From Allobosea sp. OK403 (lineage in GTDB: Bacteria > Pseudomonadota > Alphaproteobacteria > Rhizobiales > Beijerinckiaceae): a stretch of DNA of 64,000 nt. The stretch spans positions 62,001 through 126,000 of the forward strand of contig NZ_FOQV01000002.1 in NCBI RefSeq assembly GCF_900113835.1. The letters are read 5' to 3'. A program made the translations under genes and the position numbers. Positions 55,770-59,155 of the stretch are shown piece by piece. Position 1 is the stretch's first letter, and each line of letters begins with the position of its first letter. Under the pieces are notes generated by a model, which worked only from the letters and a program-made list of their open reading frames with translations, was not told the DNA's origin and did no database searches.

Positions 55770-55940
55770 TCAGCCTCCGACGAGGCTGAACCAGCCTGCT
55801 TCGTCAATGACCTGGACGCCGTGCTTTGCGGCGTCCTTGAGCTTCGATCCAGCGCCCGGCCCCGCGACCAAGAGATCGGTCTTTGAGGAGACCGAGCCCG
55901 CGACCTTGGCGCCGAGCCGCTCAGCCATCGCCTTGGCCGC
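55770..55940 (-). pseudogene. ligA: Stray 3' end of ligA (BRCT domain tail)
   Basis: Minus-strand reading gives [20 protein letters not shown], then [18 protein letters not shown] and a tail [10 protein letters not shown] before TGA. It aligns with the last 50 residues of the intact ligA product ([47 protein letters not shown]). Homology stops abruptly near 55940, before the first BRCT strand. It cannot be translated as a useful protein. It is the expected end of the native ligA gene and is now separated from it by a gene and a different 3' end. Confidence 0.88.
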
Positions 55941-56003
55941 AAGTCGTTGTTGACTTTCGAACGAGTGACGCCGCGCAATGCTCCCCTAGGTTGAGGAGCA
56001 AGC

Positions 56004-56609
56004 ATGGACAATGAGCTATGGAATCGCTACGGGCGGGAGCGCATCAGCGATCGGCAGATCGACGAACTGATCGGGTTGGCGAAAGGCATCGCCGCGGACG
56101 GTCAAATTCAGCCGGCTGAAGTCGAATTCCTGCAAAGCTGGCTCGCCGCCAACCTCGCCGTCAGCGACCAACCACTGATTGGAACCCTCTATCAGAGGGT
56201 TAATGCCATCCTCGCCGACGGCATCGTCGACGAGGATGAAAAGGCAGAGCTGCTCGACACGCTTTTAAAATTCACCGGCCAGCCGAGCGAGCTCGGCGAG
56301 GCGCTGAAGGCGACCACGCTGCCTTTGTGCGCGCCGGCGCCGACAATCACATTTCCGGCTGCACTATTCTGCTTCACAGGGAATTTCGCTTTCGGCAAGC
56401 GCAGGGATTGCGAAGCTGCGGTGACTGAACGTGGCGGCGCCACTGGAAGCCTGACCCGGGAAACGCGCTACCTCGTAATCGGCACCTACGTGACAGATTC
56501 TTGGAAGCACTCCAACCACGGGCTCAAAATCCTGAAGGCAGTCGACATGAGGGCCCAGCGCGTGCCGATCTCGATCGTCTCCGAAGATCACTGGGCACAG
56601 AGCTTGTGA
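56004..56609 (+). CDS. TerB-like/BRCT two-domain protein
   Basis: A 201-residue soluble protein. The N-terminal helical domain (about 12-85: LIGLAKGIAADGQIQPAEVE, then VNAILADGIVDEDEKAELLD) resembles TerB-like domains, with two DG-I-E acidic motifs. The C-terminal 85 residues are a BRCT domain: FCFTGNFAFGKRRDCEAAV, ATGSLTRETRYLVIG and IVSEDHW. I know such proteins only as uncharacterised; a role in DNA repair or NAD-ligase-related binding is inference. GAGGAG sits before the ATG. It lies on the opposite strand between the intact and stray ends of ligA and was probably acquired with the replaced ligA half. Confidence 0.75.
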   Translation: MDNELWNRYGRERISDRQIDELIGLAKGIAADGQIQPAEVEFLQSWLAANLAVSDQPLIGTLYQRVNAILADGIVDEDEKAELLDTLLKFTGQPSELGEALKATTLPLCAPAPTITFPAALFCFTGNFAFGKRRDCEAAVTERGGATGSLTRETRYLVIGTYVTDSWKHSNHGLKILKAVDMRAQRVPISIVSEDHWAQSL

Positions 56610-56719
56610 AACTCGCTCCGCCGATGATGATAAGCGAGGTGGCGGCGCGATTGTGGAGCGGCCGCCGCACTCTAGAAGACTGGTGCGCGAAGGATCTAGT
56701 TCAAAATCGCAAGCAAACT

Positions 56720-59155
56720 TCAGCGTATCAACTCAAGCCATTCAGCCTCAGACTTGATATCAATCCCGAGCTTTTTTGCATCGCTCAACTTCGAGCCAGC
56801 TCCCGGCCCTGCCACAAGAATGTCTGTCTTGGCAGAAACCGAGCTGGAAACTTTTGCACCAAGGCGCTCGGCTGTCGCCTTTGCTTCACCACGCGTCATC
56901 TGCTCAAGGGTTCCAGTGAAAACCACCGTCTTCCCTGCAATCGGAGATTCTTGAGCGACCGTCTCGGCTGGTTCGGTGCGCACCTGTTCAAGCAGCGCCG
57001 TGACGACCTCTCGGTTGTGAGGTTCACGAAAAAACTCGATGAGCGATTCTGTCGCCACCGCTCCGATTTCGCTATCACTCGCGAGATATAAATAGTCCGG
57101 CCCCGGTGCCGCTAACGCTGCCGCCGCCGCAGCAGCTTGCCAATTGGATGGGTCAGCGCCAAACGCTTGCCTCAGTGCTGTCTGTTGCGCCTTGTTGAGC
57201 TTTGGCATTGCGAGATGGGCAAGCAACGGCGTCTCGCTCTTTGCCTCGCGACGGCCCCAAACGAGAATATCTTCGCGGGCAACCGGGCCAATGCTCGGCA
57301 GATTGTCCAGCGCGACATAAGCCGCTCCCGGCTGCTGGAGGCCCGCGGCGTCAACACCCGCGATCAGGTCCGGCATATCCTTGAAACGCCGAGCCAAAGC
57401 AGCCGCGGTCGTTTCTCCGATATGTCGAATTCCTAGAGCGAAGATGAGGCGCGGCAACTTGACGATACGTCGTTGTTCTATGCCTGCGAAAAGAAGATCG
57501 ACCGCTCGAGCCTCCTCTTCTTTTTTCTTTTCCTTCTTAGGTCGAACCTTTCCAGCCGCCGCGAAGCGGGCATCTATCTGCTCGTTGCGTCGCTTCTCCA
57601 TCGCGCTGCGGACTGCATCGTAATTCAGTTTGAAAATGTCAGCAGGGGATTGAACCAGTTTGGCCTCAAACAAAATCTCAATGTTGGTATCCCCGACACC
57701 GTCGATATCCAAAGCGCTGCGCGAGACGAAGTGCTTCAAACGCTCCACAGCTTGCGCCGGGCAAATCAAACCGCCTGTGCAACGGCGGACGGAGTCAAAT
57801 TCACCTGTTTGCGGATTATGCTCTCGCACCGCGTCCGAGTCACAAACCGGGCAGTGCTTGGGAAATTCGTAAGGCAGGGCGTCCGCTGGCCGCTTCGACA
57901 GATCGACCGACTGGACGCGCGGGATCACGTCGCCGGCGCGCTTCACTGTCACCGTGTCGCCGATGCGAATGTCGGGCGGCTCGCCATCGCGGATGCGCTC
58001 GCCCTTCGAATCGAAGCCGCGGATATAATCCTCGTTGTGCAGCGTCGCATTGGAGACGACGACGCCGCCGACCGTGACCGGCCTGAGCTTGGCGACGGGG
58101 CTGAGCGCGCCGGTGCGCCCGACCTGGATCTCGATCGCCTCCAGCACCGTGGTCGCCAGTTCTGCCGGAAATTTATGCGCGATCGCCCAGCGCGGCGCGC
58201 GCGCGACGAAGCCGAGCCGCGTCTGCAAGGCAAGCTCGTCGACCTTGTAGACGACGCCGTCGATATCGTAGCCGAGCGTGGCCCGCTGGCTCTCGATCAA
58301 TCGGTAGCGCTCCAGCAAGTCCCCAACGCTCTCGCAGCGCTTCATCAGCGGGTTGGTGCGAAAACCCCAGCGCTTGAAGGCCTCGACCACGCCGAATTGC
58401 GTCTGCGCCGGCACGACCGGCATCTCACCCCAGGCATAGGCGAAGAAGCGCAAGGGTCGCGCCGCGGTGATCGAAACATCGAGCTGGCGCAGCGAGCCCG
58501 CTGCCGCATTGCGCGGATTGGCGAATTCGGGCAGCCCCTTCTCGCGTTGGCGTTCGTTGATGCCCGCGAAATCGGCATGGCCGAGATAGACCTCGCCACG
58601 CACCTCGGCGATCTCCGGCACATCGTCGCCAGACAGCACATGTGGGATTTCGGAGATCGTGCGGGCATTCAGCGTGACGTCCTCGCCCTCCTCGCCATCG
58701 CCACGCGTCGCGGCGGAGACCAGCGTGCCCTTCTCGTAGCGCAGCGAGAGCGAAAGCCCGTCGATCTTGGGCTCCGCCGTGAAGGCGATGCCACCCTCCT
58801 CCTTCAGGCCGAGGAAGCTGCGCACGCGCTGCACGAAATCACCGACATCCTCGTCGGTAAAGGCGTTGCCGAGCGAGAGCATCGGCACGCGGTGCCGGAT
58901 CTTGGCGAATTTCCCCGAGGGCTTGGCGCCAACCTTGTCGCTGACGGAAGCGGCGTCCTTCAGGATCGGGAACGCCTCCTCCAGCGCGACGAGCCGGCGG
59001 CGCTTGGCGTCATAGCTCGCATCGTCGAGGATCGGCTGGTCGTCCTGGAAATAGGCGCTGTCGGCGGCCGCGATCTCGGCGGCGAGCAGCTTATGCTCCG
59101 CCCTGGCCTGGCGCTGCGTCAACTCCGCGACGGGAATGGCTTGGGACTCGCTCAT
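56720..59155 (-). CDS. ligA: NAD-dependent DNA ligase, mosaic gene
   Basis: Essential ligase of 811 residues joining Okazaki fragments. Domain Ia and the adenylation domain carry Lys130 in KIDG. The OB fold follows, then the zinc finger (HCPVCDSD, then [12 protein letters not shown]), helix-hairpin-helix repeats ([31 protein letters not shown]) and the C-terminal BRCT ([20 protein letters not shown]). The HhH part holds an extra Lys/Glu-rich insert ([13 protein letters not shown]). From about residue 425 on (below 57890) the DNA changes: GC in two 60-base lines counted by hand is 48%, against 68% in one line of the 5' half. A second BRCT tail lies at 55770-55940. The frame is intact, so the hybrid is probably functional. 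Confidence 0.92.

Follow-up and report, generated by a model that had tools for sequence, protein, structure and literature searches.

The window analysed here, a stretch of 64,000 nucleotides (nt) corresponding to positions 62001-126000 of a contig within a 6.6-Mb Bosea genome (99.99% complete, 1.02% contamination), carries a ligA gene for the NAD-dependent DNA ligase that is a mosaic. Its 5' half is native, its 3' half is of separate ancestry, both joints can be located, the displaced native tail persists downstream in its native context and like mosaics exist elsewhere. Most probably, long-type donor DNA recombined into the resident ligA with a homologous left joint and an illegitimate right joint, leaving a scrap of the old gene behind. 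The original prediction, made from the sequence of the window, had proposed that a foreign 3' half was recombined into the native gene. The present analysis supports this, but the event is neither a one-off, seven switches and a further case in the genome G250 having been found, nor homologous at its right joint. The recurrence is the new part with respect to that prediction: judging from the sequences compared, related bacteria seem to have undergone such a swap repeatedly.

Structure of the mosaic ligA gene and its left joint

The predicted intact ligA, encoding 811 amino acids (aa), was confirmed. Pfam matches to PF01653, PF03120, PF03119, PF12826 and PF00533 were all above cut-off and the NCBIfam LigA equivalog matched the protein with 789.5 bits; adenylation, OB-fold, C4 zinc finger, HhH and BRCT domains are thus present in one protein. 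A genome search found no second ligA in the 99.99% complete genome, the extra match being a LigA tail only.

Comparison of the window with the sister genome G001 gave an alignment of 2965 bases with 93.3% identity, between positions 60659 and 57699. Its final uninterrupted stretch of matches ends at 57884 (codon 424) and mismatches accumulate past this position, so that the shift in composition predicted near 57890, ahead of the zinc finger, was placed at 57884. According to Pfam, codon 424 is the end of the OB-fold match (335-425) and precedes the zinc finger (434-467). Compared in 30-residue windows with the native LigAs L003 (G001) and L004 (G019), the ligase has 89-100% identity as far as residue 420 and only 30-86% past that residue. 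Since L003 and L004 maintain 90-100% identity with each other along the whole protein, the loss of identity at residue 424 is peculiar to the window genome. Likewise, residues 8-416 share 97.1% aa identity with G001, whereas residues 481-811 are at most 54% identical to 63 native Bosea LigAs and 90% identical to P0002, a further mosaic described below.

The G+C content falls from 66.6% in the 5' part, with 86% at third codon positions (GC3), to 56.7% in the 3' part, where GC3 is 58%; the GC3 of the native 3' part of G001 is 89%. The contrast in G+C was therefore correctly foreseen, while the value of 48% then proposed for the 3' half is true at most of single lines, the lowest 300-nt window having 51.7%.

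The leftover tail and the right joint

An additional ligA-type BRCT tail had been noticed beyond the ligA stop codon, and the alignments agree with it. Positions 55769-55938 share 94.7% nucleotide identity with the ligA end of G001 (L003 3489-3659), Pfam gave a BRCT match (1.8e-10), and the 55 residues of this tail are all identical to residues 664-718 of G001 LigA; no other LigA compared ends in this way. The segment 54774-55762, in turn, is 92.8% identical to the downstream flank of G001, which carries 170 nt more than the window between the alignments of the ligA end and of the flank. The flanks of ligA are consequently native on both sides, and the possibility that the tail was an independent conserved gene was not borne out: it is a displaced native C-terminus in its native place.

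About 716 nt of the native ligA are missing and have been replaced by 1945 nt of other DNA, consisting of 1164 nt of ligA, a spacer of 110 nt, a 606-nt gene for a BRCT-like protein and 65 nt upstream of this gene. At the right joint, the DNA upstream of the BRCT gene meets native ligA codon 664, inside the BRCT domain. The homology is therefore one-sided, with a left joint in register within ligA and a non-homologous right joint, and because of the latter a plain double crossover alone does not account for the scrap. The features of the locus are given in Table 1.

Table 1. Features of the ligA locus (positions in the window)
Feature	Position	Strand	Description
Native upstream flank, DUF2189 membrane-protein gene	59156..60659	+	Inside the 93.3% G001 alignment; DUF2189 by Pfam
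ligA, NAD-dependent DNA ligase	56720..59155	-	811 aa, intact, mosaic; sole ligA found in the genome
Native 5' part of ligA	57884..59155	-	Codons 1-424: adenylation and OB-fold domains
Foreign 3' part of ligA	56720..57883	-	"Long" type: zinc finger, HhH region, BRCT
201-aa gene, C-terminal BRCT-like domain	56004..56609	+	Convergent with ligA; relatives in phages and prophages
Non-native stretch, 65 nt	55939..56003	.	From BRCT-gene start to right joint; outside the G001 alignments
Leftover native ligA tail	55770..55938	-	Last 55 codons and stop; part of BRCT domain
Native downstream flank	54774..55762	+	Part of an AraC-type regulator gene and a small open reading frame; AraC and cupin domains

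Recurrence of the mosaic in Bosea

The N-terminal half of the window LigA groups beside those of G001, G019 and G072, and its C-terminal half with P0002 and other long types, a long LigA C-terminus being one whose HhH region is extended by about 90 residues. As had been anticipated, separate trees of the two halves gave different topologies, and a position of the window C-terminus among the natives was rejected (p-AU, approximately unbiased test, 6e-5). In the C-terminal tree, for which the tree program issued a long-branch warning, the natives make up one clade and seven mosaics another, which also holds P0008, whose N-terminus is just 70% identical to a native.

Besides that of the window, six LigAs (P0002-P0007) among the C-terminal relatives P0002-P0009 combine a Bosea-like N-terminus with a long C-terminus. 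Their residues 8-416 were compared with 63 natives (G051 gave no match, G069 is fragmented and the broken G082 was dropped). The closest natives were G004 for P0005 (99.5% identity), G006 for P0006 (97.8%), G016 for P0007 (97.5%), G014 for P0004 (95.6%), G070 for P0003 (94.8%) and G075 for P0002 (90.6%). Over residues 481-811, the mosaics share 50-55% identity with the best native and 63-90% with the nearest other mosaic. In all seven the switch point, located by eye, lies at about residues 418-446. No earlier break was found in the four mosaics having a native at least 97% identical (the window, P0005, P0006 and P0007), the nearest native of P0002-P0004 being too distant for judging earlier breaks.

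On the N-terminal tree the mosaic label requires seven changes, which may be gains or losses, and the starred branches force six of them in a 58-row tree (30 of the 88 rows left out, 16 of these natives) and seven in a 32-row tree (17 of the 63 natives). In addition, a single mosaic clade for the N-terminal half was rejected (p-AU 1.9e-62). Among these relatives, then, the N-terminal half is conserved and the C-terminal half is exchanged.

Some further variants of LigA were observed. In P0006 about 18 residues, including a partial repeat, are inserted near residue 395, shortly before the switch. The ligA frame of L109 (G082:C1:1180200-1186200) is broken after about codon 510, either by a sequencing error or by a real break. 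Second, divergent LigA genes occur in three Bosea genomes (G008:C1, G023:C2 and G055:C2), each on a separate contig from the main ligA.

Distribution of the long C-terminus

Among the matches listed for the 67 genomes of the genus, a continuous match to the long C-terminus was found in that of the window only, although 66 of them gave some match, and no other had a best E-value under 1e-46. At the order level, a continuous match over 391 residues was obtained in 21 of 397 sampled genomes and some match in 386. The 21 long-type genomes comprise that of the window, all eight of group g20, three of g26, five of g83 and one each of g135, g117, g141 and g9; a closer look at the groups gave the long type in 3 of 12 g26 and 6 of 14 g83 genomes. 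The LigA of G292 is intermediate (753 aa; split). A protein search also retrieved long ligases of Methylobacterium, Phreatobacter, Azorhizobium and Aureimonas with 50-56% identity.

By their N-terminal halves the long LigAs of g83 cluster with g83, and by their C-termini with other long types, as determined with FastTree on 24 of the 28 family genomes, fragments being left out. Two labels of this tree must be read with care: G248 is "long" by length but its C-terminus is short, and G032 reads long yet is placed apart.

A second, probable displacement in G250

In G250, which belongs to another family (f20), 97.6% DNA identity to the native relative G345 extends up to about ligA codon 235. Past this codon come a foreign, long-type ligA end and then a 369-aa gene, whose product is an exonuclease of the DEDDh type (PF00929, 2.6e-17), likewise foreign, with a SWIM match below threshold and a BRCT end (PF00533, 2.7e-14). 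Identity to G345 returns (94.7%) inside the exonuclease gene, in frame with the native ligA end. An old C-terminal piece lying downstream in the same orientation is therefore met both in the window (55770-55938) and in G250, and the latter illustrates how a discarded gene end can become a new domain of a neighbour gene. This chimeric exonuclease with its leftover native ligA BRCT tail occupies 7949-9058 of L266 (G250) in reverse-complement coordinates.

Of 25 long-type loci inspected, 9 (L153, L188, five of the eight g20, G360 and G250) have a similar exonuclease gene no more than 1.5 kb downstream of ligA; in L166 it is about 8 kb from ligA. It was not seen beside the ligA of the other three g20, G273, g83, G414, G323, G443, G032 or the window, nor beside the native loci among L003-L109, for which the flanks are short. 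The BRCT domain was absent, according to Pfam, from the two other exonucleases tested, L242 and L153. In L180 such an exonuclease lies near a BRCT gene, without ligA. The exonucleases found genus-wide are distant relatives only.

Origin of the hybrid gene

Following the preferred reading, an ancestor of the window strain, after its split from G001, would have received DNA of a bacterium whose ligA locus was of the long type, this DNA being made up of the ligA 3' half and the convergent BRCT gene. Homology within ligA would have produced the left joint, where the OB-fold ends (codon 424), and the right one would have been formed illegitimately, by joining the DNA just upstream of the BRCT gene to native codon 664. 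Such an exchange would leave a hybrid ligase that is complete, together with a passenger gene and a scrap of 55 codons, at the cost of the approximately 716 nt of native ligA. A one-sided event of this kind may be attributed to homology-facilitated illegitimate recombination. Its size, 1.9 kb in and 0.7 kb out, is of the order reported in PMC3240628. The DNA could have entered by transformation, phage or conjugation, and the BRCT gene presumably travelled together with the ligA 3' half. The convergent pairs of such a gene and a long ligA in three Rhizobiaceae loci (L153, L166 and L188), and the equal length of the contigs given for the BRCT gene P0126 and the mosaic ligase P0003, count in favour of this reading. 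Selection for a working ligase would retain only the events delivering a whole 3' half, and the domain border at the joint probably tolerates exchange. The hybrid ligase is predicted, on sequence grounds, to be functional, as no other ligA was found in the genome.

Several observations weigh against this explanation. First of all, the left joint of G250, at about codon 235, and its passenger are different. Scraps are present in 2 of the 21 long-type genomes, and within the approximately 1.5 kb examined downstream of ligA a second LigA tail was met in one of the 20 others (G250) and the BRCT gene in none of the 20. For the mosaics P0002-P0007 the comparison covered the protein sequences. The mean nucleotide identity between native and long-type ligA is highest over codons 361-380 (82%) and amounts to 67-72% over codons 401-460; a homology maximum was thus not supported as the cause of the clustered left joints, and homology alone does not explain their clustering. 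With respect to composition, 10 of 582 other 1945-base segments of the window are equal to or below the inserted segment in G+C content. Finally, the donor was not found in genome contigs and viral contigs with peptide patterns of the long C-terminus.

As an alternative, which we regard as possible though unlikely, the module would have been formed once and then have spread among Bosea species by two-sided homologous recombination. The seven mosaics do stand together in the C-terminal tree, with P0008 alone among them, and the nearest BRCT genes, at 89% (P0122) and 78% (P0126) identity, are about as similar to that of the window as the C-termini of P0002 (90%) and P0003 (76%) are. Only P0126 is tied to a mosaic, this gene and the mosaic ligase P0003 both being listed on contigs of 4,943,520 bases. 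However, arms that are 80-90% identical should permit crossovers along the whole 5' half, and the switch is at the left border of the module with no earlier break in the window, P0005, P0006 or P0007. Moreover, the window tail is of the type of its own lineage.

A second alternative, in our opinion very unlikely, is that the locus is what remains of an integrative element targeting ligA, which on insertion completes the gene again by means of a 3' half that it carries; here the integrase would have been deleted later, along with most of the native half that was displaced. It would agree with the switch of all seven mosaics within one narrow stretch and with the existence of stand-alone native-type LigA 3' halves (P0241 and P0242, 317 aa each, both beginning at one and the same internal codon), but these may be frame-shifted genes, and the left joint of G250 is elsewhere. 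The best hint for such an element is P0300, in which a stretch matching the "phage integrase" family DUF3701 (29.5 bits, cut-off 26.9) is fused in frame to a native-type Bosea LigA tail. Nevertheless, this match spans the junction, DUF3701 was found in none of the 67 genus genomes, and the N-terminal part of P0300 matched 1 of the 397 order genomes, weakly. No integrase was recognised beside the locus in the list of open reading frames or among the genes given to Pfam, a search that did not include every reading frame, and a decayed element could have lost it. As for attachment (att) sites, no direct repeat pairs the joints. The longest word common to the 200-nt stretches at both joints has 7 nt, with 280 of 300 shuffles equal or better, and D2, a 20-nt repeat of 75% identity, has one copy at the right joint and its partner 400 nt from the left joint.

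An assembly chimera or fast evolution of one gene is scarcely credible, since the locus is internal to a contig of 1.16 Mb, the genome has low contamination and no second ligA was found in it, the tail and flank are native, further proteins of the same build exist and the 3' half is placed in a separate clade.

Comparison with known systems

Mosaic housekeeping genes arising by recombination inside a core gene are known, as in penA of Neisseria, although such cases are mostly two-sided, between close species and without a passenger gene or a leftover tail. An earlier report of this ligA swap was not found among the matches listed in literature searches, which did not extend to subscription journals.

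The displacements of rhs and other polymorphic-toxin genes are alike in having a constant 5' part, a replaceable 3' part and a downstream companion gene, in keeping the old 3' part downstream in the same orientation, and in recurring among relatives. However, a toxin gene is affected there and an essential housekeeping ligase here, where no toxin and immunity pair was recognised. The companion of ligA is not known to act as an immunity gene, and the ligA scrap occurs in few of the loci examined. The likeness to polymorphic toxins is one of mechanism only, and no membership is claimed. For the displacement of type VI secretion system effectors in Vibrio cholerae, PMC5361080 proposes a conserved stretch as the anchor, with the other end illegitimate and old downstream material kept, and cites similar proposals for rhs. 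What V. cholerae retains is an immunity gene, in contrast to the scrap of ligA or the BRCT end taken up by a neighbour in G250.

Homology-facilitated illegitimate recombination has a homologous joint on one side and a non-homologous one on the other, with insertions that are coupled to deletions, both averaging about 1 kb (PMC3240628). Those are laboratory events that, unlike the ligA case, need not rebuild an essential gene, and most of them have 3-10 bp of micro-homology at the illegitimate joint, a comparison for which no donor was found here.

The apparently repeated displacement of ligA suggests that two long-separated LigA C-termini are interchangeable across genera, and implies that trees built from ligA may be misleading. 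Toxins, for which diversity is of advantage, are known to undergo C-terminal displacement with leftover ends, and here it affects an essential replication enzyme. We also considered a broader interpretation, which seems quite unlikely, in which the ligA 3' half would be a polymorphic module in Hyphomicrobiales, an old long/short dimorphism circulating by repeated displacement, along with phage-type BRCT genes and a DEDDh exonuclease, because the C-terminal domains of LigA are contacts in conflicts with phages or plasmids, for instance through inhibitors binding the zinc finger, HhH or BRCT. If so, the BRCT protein of the passenger gene would represent a phage-borne factor directed at LigA. These results raise the questions of whether function, or sensitivity to phage factors, depends on the C-terminus being long or short, and of whether essential genes are commonly rebuilt in this one-sided manner.

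The passenger BRCT gene

The gene on the opposite strand had been described as TerB-like/BRCT. The gene itself stands (Table 1). Its BRCT half obtained weak support, as profile searches gave weak matches of the C-terminal part to BRCT proteins and, among solved structures, BRCT domains only; the TerB assignment was not confirmed, since there was no Pfam TerB match and none among the structure profiles. The 201-aa protein matches phrog_3989 (1.8e-56), a family of unknown function. Relatives were found in phage records (17, with 32-45% identity) and in viral contigs (18, with 40-65% identity). A plasmid origin was discarded, just 7 plasmid records having been retrieved, all below 60% identity, and so was a defence-system label, for which a single weak PADLOC match (1.2e-4) was obtained.

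Within the genus the BRCT gene is present in 2 of the 67 genomes, that of the window and G016. The copy of G016 (L118, 74% identity) belongs to a prophage, between the tape-measure and major-tail genes, and the ligA of this genome is native. In the order, the BRCT gene query matched 8 of the 397 genomes, two of them via LigA itself only, and in the five others besides that of the window no ligA was seen near the BRCT gene within the stretch read. Nevertheless, ligA directly adjoins the BRCT gene in 6 of 71 loci of named genomes. Three of these are from Rhizobiaceae (L153, L166 and L188) and have a long ligA convergent with the BRCT gene, as in the window; the other three are from sphingomonads, with a short ligA in tandem. 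By chance, we estimate that about 0.03 ligA-adjacent loci would be expected, taking two neighbours and approximately 5000 genes, although members of the same family may share one origin. The tie between the BRCT gene and ligA is present but loose.

What appears by eye to be a prophage in L115 (G272) carries, behind a repressor-like gene, a further relative of the BRCT gene.

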